Source: an uncultured Erysipelotrichaceae bacterium
Lineage (GTDB): Bacteria > Bacillota_I > Bacilli_A > Erysipelotrichales > Erysipelotrichaceae
Assembly: GCA_945875435.1 (NCBI GenBank)
Contig: CAMCKH010000009.1
Location: 1-47,880 of the forward strand
Reading direction: 5' to 3'
Length of the DNA: 47,880 bases
A program made the position numbers and the translations under genes. Below the pieces are notes generated by a model. It ran no database searches. It was given only the letters and a program-made list of their open reading frames with translations, and was not told where the DNA came from. How positions within the stretch are numbered: the first letter of the stretch is position 1; each line of letters starts with the position of its first letter. Below, one piece after another: positions 24,202 through 31,347 of this stretch.

Positions 24202-24909
24202 TTATACACCCTTAACCATTTCAGCTTCGTTATAAGGAATTATTGTTTCTAAGCTACCCACCACAAACCATCTACTGTCAGAACTTCCGAAGTAACAAGT
24301 CATTAAAGTAATGATTGGTTTGTTATCAAAATATTCTGTTCTATTATCTTCAAGCATATAAAAGGCATAAGGATCTGTTTCAATAATTTCACGAACACGA
24401 TAAATATAGATATTTTGTTTATCAGTATATCTAATCTCATCCCCTTCACTCACATCCATTAAAGAATGGAACAATACCCCTTTACTCTTAGCTCTATGCC
24501 CTGCGATAGTAAAGTTTCCTTGACCAATAGTCTGTTCTTCCTTCATGGTGCCAACTCCTGCCACCAAACCAGATTCATCCAATCCTTTAAAAACGGTTAA
24601 ATTTATTTTTTGTGATGGAATTACTAATTGACCAATAATATTTTGTTTATTGTATTCATTAATACTACCCCAAGTTTCAGTCGCATTAATATTTCTAACT
24701 GAATTAAAATCAAAATTAGCTGTTGACTTATTATTTTCAATAATTTCAGCTGCAGTGATTTCGCTTAAAGAAACATTCACAGCTTCTGTTTGTTTCTTGA
24801 TTTTTTGTTCATTAAGAATTGGTAAAACTAAAAGTGTAGTTCCAATTATTAAAAACAATAAAGCAATTATAGTATATATCTTATTTCTTATTTTTTTATT
24901 TTTTTTCAT
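24202..24909 (-). CDS. Class A-like sortase
   Basis: This 235-residue transpeptidase is anchored by an N-terminal helix (about 12-30). The catalytic triad is visible: His138 in TIAGHRAK, Cys205 in TLMTCYF, and Arg213 in DSRWFVVGS. It attaches sorting-signal proteins to the cell wall outside the membrane. No complete LPXTG substrate is in the window, but the left-edge secreted protein (1-686) could be one, since its C-terminus is unseen. The start overlaps the flavoprotein stop by 14 bases. Class A versus class D cannot be settled here. Confidence 0.92.
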   Translation of the reverse strand: MKKNKKIRNKIYTIIALLFLIIGTTLLVLPILNEQKIKKQTEAVNVSLSEITAAEIIENNKSTANFDFNSVRNINATETWGSINEYNKQNIIGQLVIPSQKINLTVFKGLDESGLVAGVGTMKEEQTIGQGNFTIAGHRAKSKGVLFHSLMDVSEGDEIRYTDKQNIYIYRVREIIETDPYAFYMLEDNRTEYFDNKPIITLMTCYFGSSDSRWFVVGSLETIIPYNEAEMVKGV

Positions 24910-25768
24910 TTAAAGACCTCTTTTTAGCATTCAAATATTTAATAACATCGGTTGCTGCCACTGCACCTTCATAAACAGCTTTTGAAACCTGTGCTAAACC
25001 TTCTGTGCAATCTCCACAAGCATAAATTCCTTCAATATTGGTTTTCATATTTTTATCAACCACAATTTTATTATTTAAAGTATCAAGTCCTAATTTCTTT
25101 GAAAACTCTAAAGCCCCTGCACTTCCTAAAGCCACAAAAACACCTTCACAATCATATTCATCTTTATCTGTAACAATTTTGTTTATGCGATCATCACCTT
25201 CAAAAGACTTAATTTTAGCTTCAACTATATTAAATTGTTTAAGGCTTTCAACTTCAATTTCTTTACCGTTAGTAAAAATAGTTATTTTATCAGTTAAATT
25301 TTTTAAATATTCAGCTTCGTGAGCAGCATAAATTGAATTTCCTAAAACAGCTAAATTTTTATTGCGATAGAAAAAGCCATCACAAGCTGCACAATATGAA
25401 ATACCTTTACCTTCAAAATTCTTAAAATTTCTTATAGGAGGAATATTACGACTGCTTCCTGTCGCAATGATTAAAGCATCTGCTTCATAATCATTCTTAT
25501 TGGTTGTAATAATTATTTTATCAAACACCTTAATATCTATAACCTCTTCTGATATTAAAGGAATTTCTAAAGCTCTTGCTTGAGATAAACCAATTTCATA
25601 AAGTTGACTACCATTATTACTTAAAAAACCATAATAATTGTCAATTAAATGGTGAGTATTTAAAGTAGCACTATCTTTATATAAGATAGTTGTATCAATA
25701 TTAGCTCTTTTCGCATAAAGAGCTGCACTAATCCCAGCAGGACCTGCTCCTATAATAAATAATTTCAT
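24896..25768 (-). CDS. Thioredoxin-reductase-like FAD/NAD(P) oxidoreductase
   Basis: This 290-residue paralogue of TrxB has the FAD motif IGAGPAGISAA. The redox motif is YCAACDG (Cys126 and Cys129), with CATC changed to CAAC. A glycine-rich pyridine-nucleotide site (VLGNSIYAAHEA) is altered from GGG/GDS. It is about 25 residues shorter than TrxB. Its partner may be a thioredoxin or glutaredoxin-like protein. It is co-transcribed with sortase. The start is leaderless (TAAAAT, 6 nt) and divergent from the CHR operon 57 bp away. Confidence 0.88.
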   Translation of the reverse strand: MKLFIIGAGPAGISAALYAKRANIDTTILYKDSATLNTHHLIDNYYGFLSNNGSQLYEIGLSQARALEIPLISEEVIDIKVFDKIIITTNKNDYEADALIIATGSSRNIPPIRNFKNFEGKGISYCAACDGFFYRNKNLAVLGNSIYAAHEAEYLKNLTDKITIFTNGKEIEVESLKQFNIVEAKIKSFEGDDRINKIVTDKDEYDCEGVFVALGSAGALEFSKKLGLDTLNNKIVVDKNMKTNIEGIYACGDCTEGLAQVSKAVYEGAVAATDVIKYLNAKKRSLNEKK

Positions 25769-25825: not shown

Positions 25826-26347
25826 ATGATAATTTTAAAATTATATTTAACCTTCTTTAAAATCGGACTGTTTAGTTTTGGTGGAGGCTATGCAATGATA
25901 CCCTTACTTTCTAAAGAACTAAATGAAAAAAATAACTGGTGCAGTGAAGAAGAACTTTTAGATTATTATGCTATAGCACAAATTACACCCGGTGTTATTT
26001 CAGTAAATACCGCAACTTTTGTAGGATATAAATTAAAAGGTTTTTTAGGAGCATTAGCCTCTACCTTAGGGATTATTAGCCCAAGCATTATCATCATTAG
26101 TACTATTTCCAATATAATTGAAAAATTAAACCACAACTATTTTAACTACGCTTTAAACGGTATTAAAATCGCAGTAGTGATATTAATGTTAGACAGTATT
26201 TTTAAACTTTTAGCTAAAAGTATTAAATATAAATTTCAAATAATAATCTACATTTTAGTTTTATTAACCATCTTAATATTTAAAATAGACAGTGTTTATT
26301 TAATAATTGCAGCAATAATTTTAGGAGTTATCATCAATGTTAAATAA
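25826..26347 (+). CDS. CHR-family transporter half, first
   Basis: This 173-residue membrane protein is a short-chain CHR (chromate-transporter family) subunit. LTFFKIGLFSFGGGYAMIPLL and AQITPGVISVNTATFVGY are the family signatures, followed by four to five further helices. Short CHR proteins work in pairs, and the second half follows directly. The natural substrate is an oxyanion, and chromate in a gut-type bacterium is doubtful. It is the first gene of a four-gene operon with a PII-like protein and a CPA2 antiporter, and it is leaderless. Confidence 0.9.
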   Translation: MIILKLYLTFFKIGLFSFGGGYAMIPLLSKELNEKNNWCSEEELLDYYAIAQITPGVISVNTATFVGYKLKGFLGALASTLGIISPSIIIISTISNIIEKLNHNYFNYALNGIKIAVVILMLDSIFKLLAKSIKYKFQIIIYILVLLTILIFKIDSVYLIIAAIILGVIINVK

Positions 26348-26876
26348 ATTATGGTTATTATTTTATGAATTTTTTAAAATCGGTTTATTGGCACTAGGAG
26401 GAGGACTTTCAACCATACCTTTTTTAAAAGAATTTGGTGATAGATACAATCTTTTTGATATGGATTTTATTATTAAAATGATAGCTATATCAGAAAGTAC
26501 TCCGGGTCCTATTGGAATTAATATGTCTAGCTATATCGGAATGACTCAAGCTGGTTTTATCGGTTCTCTAATAGCTTCATTAGGTTTAACTACTCCTAGT
26601 TTTTTAATAATTTTATTAATCGCAACCAAAATAGAAAAGATTAAAAATAATAGTAAAATTAATAATATTTTTAAATTTTTAAGACCTACAATCATTGCTT
26701 TGATAAGTTATATTTTAATTTCACTTTTACCCTTAACATTCTTAAAAGATAATAACTTGAATTATTTAAAAATAATTATTGCGATTATATTTTTAATAAT
26801 TTATCGTAAATTAAAACCTCACCCTATCTTTTTAATTATAATTTCCGTTATTGTGGGTATTATTTTTAAGTTATAA
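26337..26876 (+). CDS. CHR-family transporter half, second
   Basis: This 179-residue partner of the preceding gene contains FFKIGLLALGGGLSTIPFL and ISESTPGPIGINMSSYIG. The two halves probably insert in opposite orientation and form one transporter. The start overlaps the first gene by 11 bases and has AGGAG 9 nt upstream. Sixteen bases separate it from the PII-like gene. Confidence 0.9.
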   Translation: MLNKLWLLFYEFFKIGLLALGGGLSTIPFLKEFGDRYNLFDMDFIIKMIAISESTPGPIGINMSSYIGMTQAGFIGSLIASLGLTTPSFLIILLIATKIEKIKNNSKINNIFKFLRPTIIALISYILISLLPLTFLKDNNLNYLKIIIAIIFLIIYRKLKPHPIFLIIISVIVGIIFKL

Positions 26877-26892
26877 TTATGTTGGAGGATTT

Positions 26893-27231
26893 ATGCAACT
26901 TTTTATAATGTTTTTAAAAAAAATCGATGTTTTAGATGAATTAATTTTAAAATTCAACACTCATAACATCAAAGGAGGTACAGTGGTAGATGCCTTCGGA
27001 TTTGGTCAATCTTTAGCTGAAATGGAAGATTTTCCTTATTTTAGATTAATTAGAAAATATGTAAATGAAAATAATCAAGAAAATACCAAATTAATTTTAA
27101 TGGCTATTAAAAACGATGATGTTAAAAAAGCATTTGAAATTTCAAAAGAAGTAATAGGAGAATTAAATAAACCAAATAGTGCAGTCATAATAACTTTACC
27201 AATAAGTTACTATGAAGGAATTATGGAATAA
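26893..27231 (+). CDS. PII-like signalling protein next to antiporter
   Basis: The start is ATG 26893 with GGAGG 4 nt upstream; a frame extending to 26851 runs into the CHR gene. The 112-residue product follows the PII beta-alpha-beta pattern. The first strand is MQLFIMFLKK and helix one VLDELILKFNTHNI. KGGTVVDAFGFGQSL follows, where the T-loop begins. Then come NTKLILMAIKNDD, a helix around VKKAFEISKEVIGEL, and the last strand SAVIITLPIS. The usual uridylylated T-loop tyrosine motif is not seen. It overlaps the antiporter start by one base (TAATG). PII-like proteins beside transporters bind nucleotides or bicarbonate and gate them; here that is inference. Confidence 0.7.
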   Translation: MQLFIMFLKKIDVLDELILKFNTHNIKGGTVVDAFGFGQSLAEMEDFPYFRLIRKYVNENNQENTKLILMAIKNDDVKKAFEISKEVIGELNKPNSAVIITLPISYYEGIME

Positions 27232-28403
27232 TGAAATACATTATTTATTTTGGTTTGTGTTTATTATTTTCATTAATTTTTGAAAAAATAATGAAAAAAA
27301 TTAACTTCCCTTATGTAACTGGTTATTTGATTGCTGGAATTATTATCGGTCCATACGCTTTAAATATTATTTCTTTAGATTTTATCAATGATATTGAGGT
27401 ATTAAATGATATTGCTTTAAGTTTTATCGCCCTATCTATAGGAGCTGAGTTTAAACTATCATTTCTTAAAAAAATCGGCAAAGCTCCGATTATAATTGCG
27501 ATATTTGAAGCACTTATAACTACAATTGTGATTGATATTATACTGATAATTTTTAAAGTTGAAATACCTTTAGCTCTATCGCTTGGTGCTATAGGATCTG
27601 CCACAGCTTCAGCTGCCACTATTATGATAATTAAACAATATAACGCTAAAGGAAGTTTAAGTGAATTAATTTTATCGGTGGTAGCTTTAGACGATGCGGT
27701 AGCTTTAATAATATTTGGTATAAGTATTACTATAATTGAAGTCATTACTCAAAATAAAAATGTTTCACTTTTAATATCATTTTTAAACCCAATTAAAGAA
27801 ATCATTTTAGCCTTATTGTTAGGAAGTTTTTTGGCAGTATTTTTAATAATTTTAAATAAATTTTTTAAAGAAAAAACTTCAAAAACAATTCTAATAATTA
27901 TTTTTGTATTATTTTCACTTGGAATTTCTCGCACCATCAATGTCCCAGATTTAATTTCTACAATGGTTATGGCAGCAATTTTTATTAACTTTTCAAATGA
28001 TGCTAATAAAACATTGAATGTTATCGACCAAATGACACCACCTTTATTAATTATGTTTTTCTTCTTGAGTGGTGCTTATTTAGATCTTAGTAAAATCTTA
28101 GGAGTTGGTGTAATTGGAATAATCTATTTAATTTTTAGAGTTTTAGGTAAAGTAAGTGGAGCAATCGTTGGTGGAATTGTTGCTAAAAAAGATTTTCAAA
28201 CCACTAAAAATCTAGGTTTTTCTTTAATACCTCAAGCTGGAATTGCCCTAGGTCTTGCGACAACTATGGGTAATTTATTACCAAATTATGCTGATAGTAT
28301 TAAAACGGTAATTTTATCAAGCACCATTATATTTGAATTAATAGGTCCATTAGTTACTAAATATATTTTAATCAAAACTAAAAATATTGATATTATAAAA
28401 TAA
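27231..28403 (+). CDS. CPA2/Kef-type cation:proton antiporter
   Basis: This 390-residue protein has about 12 membrane helices and CPA2-type signatures. These are FPYVTGYLIAGIIIGPY near the start, LGAIGSATASAATIMIIKQY, and VVALDDAVALIIFGIS, which carries the paired aspartates of the ion site. There is no C-terminal RCK/TrkA-N domain, unlike KefB/C, so a separate regulator is plausible. The adjacent PII-like protein is the obvious candidate. It exchanges Na+ or K+ for H+ across the membrane; the ion is not decidable from sequence. It is the last gene of the operon. Confidence 0.9.
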   Translation: MKYIIYFGLCLLFSLIFEKIMKKINFPYVTGYLIAGIIIGPYALNIISLDFINDIEVLNDIALSFIALSIGAEFKLSFLKKIGKAPIIIAIFEALITTIVIDIILIIFKVEIPLALSLGAIGSATASAATIMIIKQYNAKGSLSELILSVVALDDAVALIIFGISITIIEVITQNKNVSLLISFLNPIKEIILALLLGSFLAVFLIILNKFFKEKTSKTILIIIFVLFSLGISRTINVPDLISTMVMAAIFINFSNDANKTLNVIDQMTPPLLIMFFFLSGAYLDLSKILGVGVIGIIYLIFRVLGKVSGAIVGGIVAKKDFQTTKNLGFSLIPQAGIALGLATTMGNLLPNYADSIKTVILSSTIIFELIGPLVTKYILIKTKNIDIIK

Positions 28404-28425: not shown

Positions 28426-28509
28426 TGGTGCGAGTGAAGGGACTCGAACCCCCACTCCGAAGGAACTAGATCCTAAGTCTAGCGCGTCTGCCAATTTCGC
28501 CACACTCGC
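28426..28509 (-). tRNA. tRNA-Leu (anticodon UAG)
   Basis: The minus strand folds as a class II tRNA with acceptor GCGAGTG/CACTCGC, discriminator A and an encoded CCA. The anticodon stem CTAGA...TCTAG encloses anticodon TAG, so it reads CUN codons. A short variable arm (TTCCTTCGGAG) and TTCGAGT T-loop are present. The T stem has two G-U pairs. The length is 84 nt with CCA. A consensus promoter lies just upstream. Confidence 0.95.
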
Positions 28510-28590: not shown

Positions 28591-28908
28591 ATGAAAGATA
28601 TAAATATTTTAAAAGAAATAAGAAATGATGGTAATTTTTACCTGAATGAAGCTATATTTTGTGAAATCGCAGATTTATCTATTTCTAGGGTGGAAGGTGC
28701 TTTTCCTGCAAAAAATAATACTAGAAATACTACTATTAAAATTGTTAAAAACGAAATTCATCTAGAAGTTAATATCAAGGTTAAACAAGGTGTCAACGTT
28801 CATAACATCTGTGAAAAACTTCAAAATAAAATCTATTTAAATATTTTCCAAACCACCGAAATTAAACCTACTGAAATCAATATTAAAGTTGTAGGTTTCC
28901 ATAATTAA
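28591..28908 (+). CDS. Asp23/Gls24 family protein
   Basis: This 105-residue protein has the Asp23/Gls24 (DUF322) pattern: DGNFYLNEAIFCEIADLSISRVEGAF, then a beta segment and GVNVHNICEKLQNKI...VNIKVVGF. Members form membrane-associated assemblies linked to envelope stress or lipid metabolism in Bacillota. The N-terminus and C-terminus are both short, so it is a minimal member. The start is leaderless. An intrinsic terminator follows at once. Confidence 0.85.
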   Translation: MKDINILKEIRNDGNFYLNEAIFCEIADLSISRVEGAFPAKNNTRNTTIKIVKNEIHLEVNIKVKQGVNVHNICEKLQNKIYLNIFQTTEIKPTEINIKVVGFHN

Positions 28909-28934: not shown

Positions 28935-28961
28935 TAAAAAGGAAGTTGTTACCAACTTCCT
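28935..28961 (-). terminator. Intrinsic terminator of the DUF2207 gene
   Basis: The 9-bp perfect stem (AGGAAGTTG 28940-28948 with CAACTTCCT 28953-28961) has a 4-nt loop. It overlaps the DUF2207 stop and is followed by T residues on the minus strand. Confidence 0.8.
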
Positions 28962-30796
28962 CCTCTGCTGCCTCCAAATCCTCCTCCAGAAAATCCTCCT
29001 CCAAAAGAGCCACCTTTAAATCCACCGCTTGAACTTTTTGGAAGTATTTTACTCATCGAAGTATTATAAGCACTACCAATACCTCTAGTTAATCTATTAA
29101 AATAAATATAATTTAAACCATTAAACCCAACATAACCACTGTGAGCTATTATTTCAATATTTTTAAAATGATTTGACCACAAATTAGTAAGTCCAAATGC
29201 ATAGGCATAAGGTAAAATATCATAGTAAAGATAAGGGTTTTCTTTTACAAATCCTTGAAGTTTTTCATAATCTGTATGAATGATGAAATTTTTTAAACCT
29301 AAAATTTTGCCTGTTATATCATTTCCATAATCCGTTCTTTTAACAATAAGTGGAGCTAATAAATTTTGAATAGCTAATATTACTAAGTTAAAACCTAATA
29401 AATAAGCATTAAAATCCAATTCTACTCCTGCATAAAAAGTTAAAACAAAGCCAAATGAAGCTAAAATACTGATTAAAAATAATATTTTTTTATTATATAT
29501 TTGATACAATGCACTAAATATAACTACCGGTATTGAAATTAAAGCAAGCACCATCATATATCCTGCATAAGTAACTTCTCCAACTATATAATAGTTGCTT
29601 AAAAGGTGTAAAAATATATGAATAAATCCAAAAACAACCCCAACAACACTCATTAAACACGCAAAAATAATAGACTTTTTATCGTAAATTGATCTTTCAT
29701 TTTTAAAATAATTATAGACCTTACCATTCAAATCACCGAGTGAAATCAATGTTTTTTCACTAAGATTATAAATATCTAAACTATCATCTTTATTAAAATT
29801 TTTAAATAAAATATTGTAAAAACCTATTTCAACCTCACTAAGATCATCACCTATATTTTTTGAAGTTTTAATAATCTTAATTTTACCATCTACCTCATTT
29901 AAAACAATGTAGTTTTTTCTAGCAAGTTCAAAAAATAATGACTGTATTCCAATAATGCTGCTGTGTTTATTTAAAATATACTCTGCATGTATTGAACTTA
30001 AACCTTTTGGAGCAGTAAATTCAACGGTCTCAATAATTTGTTTATCCTTTCCGTATTTACGATAAAATATAAAAGTATAAACTAAAACCGCAACATTTAA
30101 AGCAGTAAATATTAATAATTCTTTGTTGTCAATTTTTGGATAATTAAAATAATTACTGTCAAACTTATACAAGGTGGTAAATGCTTCTTCAACCCCTATC
30201 ACACCTTCATAAACTCCACTAATACTATTATCTTGGTAATTTAACTTTAATTTTGTAAGATCGTTATTTTGATTAAAAAACTGAATTTTTTCAAAATCTA
30301 TTTTATCTTCAAAACTAAGTTTAAAACTAAAATTATGAGTTAAAGTTGGATTTTTACCCAAAAGATTGTAATAAAATATTTGATTATCAAGTTTTAAATC
30401 TCTTGAATGAATTTTATAACTAACTTGGTAATTTTCAAAAGATGAAGCATAACTATCTTCTTTTCCAAGATAAATAACTACTCCATTTTCATCATCAATT
30501 ATCTCTGCAATATTTTGGTTAGCTTTAATATCAGTTATTGGAAAATAGTAAGTCTTATTACCTTTACCAAAATCCATATCATATTTTGTAGGTATGGATA
30601 AAGTAATTCCGTGCTTTAAAGTTTTAAAAGCCACATCAATATCTTCTTTAACTTCAAAAACACCATCTTTTCTAACTAAAATATCAACATGATATCGTTG
30701 ATATTCAAAATTATCAATTTCTGCATCTATTTTAAAAGTAAATGCAAAAATAATTATAGAAATCGTAAAAAAAATCTTAGAAAGATACTTTAACAT
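28949..30796 (-). CDS. DUF2207 membrane protein
   Basis: I choose ATG 30796 (AAAGAG before it), giving about 615 residues. Frames starting earlier lie inside lemA. A signal helix (LSKIFFTISIIIFAFTF) leads to an extracytoplasmic DUF2207 domain (YQRYHVDILVRKDGVFEVKEDIDV). A helix follows at about 245, then a cytoplasmic stretch, then further helices around 390-480. The C-terminal tail is Gly/Ser-rich (GGFKGGSFGGGFSGGG). DUF2207 is usually paired with LemA and has no settled function. It overlaps lemA by 20 bases, so the two are coupled. Confidence 0.85.
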   Translation of the reverse strand: MLKYLSKIFFTISIIIFAFTFKIDAEIDNFEYQRYHVDILVRKDGVFEVKEDIDVAFKTLKHGITLSIPTKYDMDFGKGNKTYYFPITDIKANQNIAEIIDDENGVVIYLGKEDSYASSFENYQVSYKIHSRDLKLDNQIFYYNLLGKNPTLTHNFSFKLSFEDKIDFEKIQFFNQNNDLTKLKLNYQDNSISGVYEGVIGVEEAFTTLYKFDSNYFNYPKIDNKELLIFTALNVAVLVYTFIFYRKYGKDKQIIETVEFTAPKGLSSIHAEYILNKHSSIIGIQSLFFELARKNYIVLNEVDGKIKIIKTSKNIGDDLSEVEIGFYNILFKNFNKDDSLDIYNLSEKTLISLGDLNGKVYNYFKNERSIYDKKSIIFACLMSVVGVVFGFIHIFLHLLSNYYIVGEVTYAGYMMVLALISIPVVIFSALYQIYNKKILFLISILASFGFVLTFYAGVELDFNAYLLGFNLVILAIQNLLAPLIVKRTDYGNDITGKILGLKNFIIHTDYEKLQGFVKENPYLYYDILPYAYAFGLTNLWSNHFKNIEIIAHSGYVGFNGLNYIYFNRLTRGIGSAYNTSMSKILPKSSSGGFKGGSFGGGFSGGGFGGSRGGSW

Positions 30797-31331
30797 TTTC
30801 TCTTTCTTCTTCATTAGCTTCAAAATATGGTCTTCTTTCAAATTTAAAAATACCAGCTAAAATATTTGAAGGGAAATAATCAACTTGATTATTATATGCC
30901 CTTACAACACCGTTATAATACTTTCTAGCATTCGCAATATCTGCTTCAGTTGCTTTTAATTGTTGAATTAAATCAGAAAAATTAGTGTTAGCTTTAAGTT
31001 CTGGATAATTTTCTGCAACTGCTAAAAAACCACTCACAGCTCTTCCTAATTGATTTTCAGCTGCGAATTTTTCATTATCGTTACTAGCACCAAAGACATT
31101 AGCACGAGCCTTCGCAATATTTTCAAAAACAGATTTTTCATGTCCTGCATAACCTTTAACTGTTTCGACTAAATTAGGAATCAAATCAAATCTTTGTTTT
31201 AAATAAACATCCATTGTAGAAAAAGCCTCTTCTACTCTTTCTCTCAAACTAATAAATGAATTGTATGTAGAAATAGTATATAACACCACCAATAATACTA
31301 TCGCAATTAAAATAATATGTATAATATTCAT
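30777..31331 (-). CDS. lemA: LemA family protein
   Basis: This 184-residue protein has one N-terminal helix (IIHIILIAIVLLVVLYTIS). A long helical LemA domain follows: RVEEAFSTMDVYLKQRFDLIPNLVETVKGYAGHE, then AENYPELKANTNF and IANARKYYNGVVRAYNNQVDYFPSNI. The helical bundle should lie on one face of the membrane. The start is ATG 31331 with GGAGG 5 nt upstream; a TTG at 31343 is part of that site. The gene is paired with DUF2207. Confidence 0.93.
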   Translation of the reverse strand: MNIIHIILIAIVLLVVLYTISTYNSFISLRERVEEAFSTMDVYLKQRFDLIPNLVETVKGYAGHEKSVFENIAKARANVFGASNDNEKFAAENQLGRAVSGFLAVAENYPELKANTNFSDLIQQLKATEADIANARKYYNGVVRAYNNQVDYFPSNILAGIFKFERRPYFEANEEERENVKVSF

Positions 31332-31347
31332 AATTACCTCCAATAAA

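Follow-up and report, generated by a model that had tools for sequence, protein, structure and literature searches.

Antiporters of the CPA2 family, such as NapA and NHA2, are dimers, and the KefC-like members of the family are controlled by an RCK domain. In the KhtTU and AmhMT systems, the CPA2 antiporter is instead encoded beside a separate small cytoplasmic regulator of the RCK_C (TrkA_C) type. Regulators of another kind, the PII proteins, act on adjacently encoded transporters in the GlnK-AmtB and SbtB-SbtA systems, and a review from 2023 remarks that PII proteins seem to be used only with transporters that function as trimers (PMC10710835). GlnK is encoded beside the trimeric ammonium channel AmtB, which it controls, and its docking via the T-loop serves as our model for the mechanism. 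SbtB of the cyanobacteria is a small PII-like protein with a redox loop, CGPxGC, that is encoded with the trimeric bicarbonate transporter SbtA and inhibits it by direct binding. The divergent PII genes of PII-NG, a group described as proteobacterial, are located in operons with the proton-driven cation exporter CzcABC, for example in Geobacter sulfurreducens (PMC7726332). In the Firmicutes, the PII-like protein PstA (DarA), which has a short T-loop and a long B-loop, binds c-di-AMP.

The locus described here shares a feature with each of these systems and differs from all of them. As in GlnK-AmtB and SbtB-SbtA, a small protein of the PII type is encoded next to a membrane transporter, but the transporter is a CPA2 antiporter, and neither the uridylylation and GDGK motifs of GlnK nor the CGPxGC loop of SbtB is present; the window protein lacks cysteines altogether. 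As in PII-NG, a divergent PII gene is found with a gene for a predicted proton-driven cation transporter, but this partner is a CPA2 protein in the Firmicutes rather than an RND efflux system of the CzcABC type, a comparison that is based on the gene partner. As in KhtTU and AmhMT, a CPA2 antiporter has a separate small cytoplasmic protein encoded alongside, but this neighbour is PII-like rather than an RCK_C protein. Like PstA, it is a PII-like protein in the Firmicutes, but with a long T-loop and a short B-loop. We found no description of the PII-CPA2 pair in the searchable literature, an earlier one being possible, and the pairing looks like a widespread PII-antiporter module that is undescribed in the literature searched.

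The window, by which we mean the whole analyzed stretch of 47,880 nucleotides, is AT-rich and belongs to a genome of 1.17 Mb that is 96% complete. The genes for the PII-like protein and the antiporter are preceded by two adjacent genes for single-domain Chromate_transp (PF02417) proteins, which represent a short-chain CHR pair (Table 1). According to the reading-frame coordinates, ChrA and ChrB overlap by 11 bp. The ATG of the PII-like gene at 26893 is located 16 bp 3' of ChrB and is preceded by GGAGG, while its TAA stop codon at 27229-27231 meets the ATG of the antiporter at 27231 in the junction TAATG. The tight order of four genes reported in the preliminary description thus holds in all coordinates and junctions. 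Divergent from the CHR genes is a gene for a flavoprotein (PF07992) that resembles thioredoxin reductase and carries the motif CAACDGFF (24896-25768). A tRNA-Leu is located 3' of the antiporter on the other strand (28426-28509), and the region also contains a short gene for an Asp23-like protein (28591-28908) and two minus-strand genes (28949-31343), one of which codes for a LemA-like protein and the other for a membrane protein whose tail is rich in Gly and Ser.

Table 1. Features of the PII-CPA2 locus and its neighbours, in window coordinates
Feature	Position	Strand	Basis or remark
ChrA-type short CHR transporter, 173 aa	25826..26347	+	Neighbour; PF02417, 1.8e-50
ChrB-type short CHR transporter, 179 aa	26337..26876	+	Neighbour; PF02417, 1.1e-37
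PII-like protein, 112 aa	26893..27231	+	Core of the finding; AlphaFold, Foldseek/VIA, PF00543 in relatives
PII-like protein, T-loop region (residues 36-65)	26998..27087	+	AlphaFold model
Short B-loop region of the PII-like protein, residues 89-97	27157..27183	+	Profile alignment to 2gw8, 2eg1
CPA2 cation/proton antiporter, 390 aa, NapA-like, without RCK	27231..28403	+	PF00999; NapA/NHA2-fold model
Ion site of the antiporter, Asp154-Asp155	27690..27695	+	Alignment to NapA Asp156-Asp157
Lys307 of the antiporter	28149..28151	+	Alignment to NapA Lys305

By itself, the PII-like protein in the window gives a weak match to PF00543 (E 0.09), and its 13.6 bits are below the curated cut-off of 25. Relatives of the protein are present in 24 of 60 near genomes, and PF00543 is matched at E up to 0.1 by each of the 15 sequences in the first of two alignments and by 46 of the 53 partnered relatives in the second, wider one (best 4.7e-10). 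A sequence search of the PDB with the window protein alone returned chance matches only, and profile searches ranked PII chains first with E values of only 0.02-0.14, so the assignment of the fold rests on the structure model. The AlphaFold model, which was built from the first alignment (pLDDT 85), has the predicted order strand-helix-strand-(two helices)-strand-helix-strand and the ferredoxin-like fold of the PII superfamily. Its best match in VIA was the PII chain 4c3m (Z 11.6, rmsd 1.8 A over 83 residues), and PstA chains were also matched (4d3h, Z 10.7). Of the 50 matches listed by Foldseek and VIA, all are chains of the PII superfamily, with the sole exception of 3m05 in the Foldseek list, a structural-genomics protein of unknown function. 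The preliminary description had named a structure prediction other than PII-like as a result that would refute its interpretation, and the model is PII-like.

In the model, a T-loop of about 30 residues with predicted helices is placed between the strands at residues 29-33 and 66-72, while the B-loop is short, about 9 residues. The T-loop reads GQSLAEMEDFPYFRLIRKYVNENN and lacks the RGxEY uridylylation motif, in agreement with the earlier reading that the motif of the uridylylated tyrosine is missing. A profile alignment to the solved PII chains 2gw8 and 2eg1 places PNTGIxF of the relatives at the position of the canonical GDGKIF. The canonical ATP-binding signatures, including the lysine that contacts the ATP phosphates, are missing from the PII-like proteins, which may therefore bind another ligand than the nitrogen PII proteins do. 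A canonical nitrogen PII (GlnB or GlnK) was ruled out by the missing RGxEY and GDGK motifs together with the low PF00543 score, and a c-di-AMP receptor of the PstA/DarA type by the lengths of the loops; PF06153 was matched by one of 53 relatives (E 0.0037). On the evidence of sequence and model, the protein is PII-like, but neither a nitrogen PII nor PstA-like in its loops. A GSLR-type T-loop motif is common among the relatives, and it occurs in partnered (82/119) and orphan (9/13) proteins alike, for which reason it cannot be claimed as an antiporter contact.

The antiporter matches PF00999 at 4.7e-30 across nearly its full length, which leaves no room for an extra domain. As previously claimed, it has no RCK or other regulatory domain, since the polypeptide stops straight after the last membrane helix. 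The model (pLDDT 88.5) has the NapA/NHA2 fold, with Z 37.8 to NHA2 and Z 37.4 to NapA (4bwz) over 372 residues. In a HMMER alignment to TtNapA, Asp154-Asp155 and Lys307 fall on Asp156-Asp157 and Lys305 of NapA. The two aspartates are kept in nearly all of 146 antiporter relatives, and the lysine in all relatives that cover its column. An aspartate at position 6 and a lysine at position 8 are the mark of electrogenic CPA2 proteins (PMC6181914), and the window antiporter carries this signature of Asp-Asp and a membrane lysine. It is thus probably an electrogenic cation/H+ exchanger of the NapA type, as judged from the alignment and the model. We found no further PF00999 protein in the genome, and neither a PF00543 match nor a canonical PII. 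The only TrkA_C protein is encoded on another contig, beside a gene for a Trk/Ktr-type transporter. As only a single CPA antiporter and no canonical PII were detected in it, the small genome represents a clean case.

The association between the two genes was examined in three surveys that overlap in part and are not fully independent, and the PII-like gene adjoins an antiporter gene in 47/48, 38/43, and 72/81 cases. The first survey covered strong PII matches in 295 genomes from the same taxonomic order as the window, and the 47 pairs are those in the family of the window. The PII-like gene comes before the antiporter in 42 of these pairs and after it in five, while in the single exception the PII-like gene is close to the end of a contig, where the start of an antiporter is still visible. 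The second survey was a sample of the phylum (392 genomes), counted outside the order of the window. Here, 38 of 43 PII matches have an antiporter on the same strand beside them, 20 in one gene order and 18 in the other, and the gap is 1.5 kb in one of the pairs and less than 100 bp in the others. The third survey consisted of 80 named contigs chosen by the antiporter alone. The PII-like gene is located directly upstream of 72 of the 81 antiporters; the median gap amounts to a few bases, and most gaps fall within the range from -4 to +5 bp. The taxa include Lachnospiraceae, Erysipelotrichaceae, Oscillospiraceae, Christensenellaceae, Clostridiaceae, Holdemania, Peptoniphilus, Fenollaria, and Alkalibacterium. 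A search of 72,556 plasmid records gave a single PII match (OY725837.1, 89714-90040), and 65 bp beyond it there is an antiporter match on the same strand. The adjacency thus recurs far above chance, and conservation of the pairing in relatives, the absence of which had been named beforehand as a refuting result, is strongly borne out across much of the phylum.

The two proteins also show correlated divergence. Over 120 pairs, the PII and antiporter distances have a Mantel r of 0.69, uncorrected for the species tree, against a maximum of 0.16 in shuffled data. When the antiporter tree was labelled by whether the PII-like gene is upstream, downstream, or absent, 12 changes were required, compared with 35 in shuffles, and the reversed gene order was confined to one clade plus one row. 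No fusions of the PII-like and CPA2 proteins were seen. Four genomes in the surveys contain two pairs, which differ in their gene order.

Gene lengths and the CHR profile revealed no third gene that recurs next to the pair. Of about 120 PII-CPA2 neighbourhoods, three have a CHR pair directly adjacent, namely in the window, in another genus of the same family with the same order (CHR-CHR-PII-CPA2), and in a contig from Clostridiaceae, where the CHR pair is located downstream (PII-CPA2-CHR-CHR). Three cases are perhaps more than expected from random placement, yet their number is much too small to indicate a functional unit, and the CHR genes were rejected as part of a conserved module. They are mostly incidental neighbours of the PII-CPA2 pair here, although probably co-transcribed with it in the window organism. 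Of the ion-homeostasis module proposed in the preliminary description, the half formed by the PII-like protein and the antiporter is supported by association, while the half formed by the paired CHR transporters is not supported.

The partnership is not obligatory. In the sister family f2, all 31 strong PII matches lack an adjacent antiporter, and 5 of the 17 genomes with such an orphan gene have no PF00999 protein at all. In the nine f2 loci concerned, the gene is often located beside, and divergent from, a gene for an aminotransferase of ~400 aa. Conversely, several clades of the antiporter subfamily have no PII gene nearby, and their genomes mostly contain no close PII-like gene elsewhere. 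Measured from the end of the profile, the antiporters without a PII partner have longer C-terminal tails (median 13.5 residues versus -1). A built-in regulatory domain was rejected, since no domain is visible in these somewhat longer tails. Seven of them have tails of 36-66 residues, likewise with no recognizable domain. A docking site was sought among the positions that separate the partnered from the PII-less antiporter clades and none was convincing; these positions are scattered over the membrane helices, the cytoplasmic loop, and the tail.

The PII-like protein is probably the regulator of the antiporter, because it is encoded directly beside the antiporter gene in many gut Firmicutes. 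Its candidacy as a soluble regulator, put forward in the preliminary description, is well supported by association, with the conserved adjacency and the PII-like predicted structure as its basis. We consider it quite probable that the two genes form a regulatory module in which the PII-like protein is a detachable regulatory subunit of the PII type. The wider proposal, that it is a dedicated ligand-gated subunit of an electrogenic CPA2 antiporter across a large part of the Firmicutes, appears to us evenly balanced. Under such a mechanism, the PII-like protein would presumably form a trimer and respond to a small ligand in the cytoplasm, for which an adenine nucleotide is the leading guess. It would then dock, probably via the T-loop, on the antiporter from the cytoplasmic side and switch it on or off, thereby holding the place that the RCK_C partner has in KhtTU. 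Physical binding and docking are suggested by the precedents of GlnK-AmtB and SbtB-SbtA, and the direction of regulation, the identity of the ligand, and that of the ion are likewise matters of inference. Several observations count against a regulatory module: the f2 orphans, the antiporter clades without a PII gene, the T-loop motif shared with the orphans, and the missing ATP signatures. Furthermore, the transporters known to be regulated by PII proteins are said to be trimers (PMC10710835), while the CPA2 antiporters are dimers.

In another reading, the PII-like protein signals autonomously, has its target elsewhere, and is merely co-expressed with the antiporter since both answer the same stress. 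In favour of this are the f2 copies, which carry the same T-loop motif, some of them in genomes without PF00999. However, no further gene recurs beside the pair, the adjacency survives inversion of the gene order and spans many families, and a conventional PII network is not evident in the window genome, where no canonical nitrogen PII was found, all of which makes an autonomous role unlikely. The very tight coupling of the genes, with most gaps at -4 to +5 bp, and the lack of canonical nucleotide-binding signatures would also fit a factor that serves the assembly or stability of the antiporter and is not gated by a ligand. We regard such a factor as more doubtful still, since the conserved PII fold includes a long T-loop, as in PII proteins that act in signalling, and many antiporters of the subfamily exist without the PII-like protein. 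Least probable of all is a four-gene operon for ion homeostasis with the PII-like protein in control of the CHR anion transporters as well as of the antiporter. The tight same-strand order in the window and the two other CHR-adjacent loci are in its favour, but in no other of the roughly 120 neighbourhoods inspected is a CHR pair directly adjacent.

If the module reading is true, a PII partner for a CPA2 antiporter breaks the trimer-only rule (PMC10710835) and adds a new class of targets, with a mismatch of a trimer on a dimer. A PII-type protein would then fill the role of the RCK proteins in other CPA2 systems, and many gut Firmicutes could couple their energy or second-messenger state to the control of Na+, K+, or pH. 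The PII-like genes of unknown role in gut Firmicutes would gain a concrete, testable target, the CPA2 antiporter.

A few loci depart from the simple arrangement. A contig from Alkalibacterium contains two PII-CPA2 pairs in tandem, and in another contig one antiporter has a PII gene upstream at a distance and another PII gene downstream. Open reading frames of ~220-240 aa with weak PII-profile matches were identified in three genomes, in one of which, G436, they occur twice in tandem (G436:C42:12521-13144). Their sequences suggest two-domain PII-like proteins of another kind.
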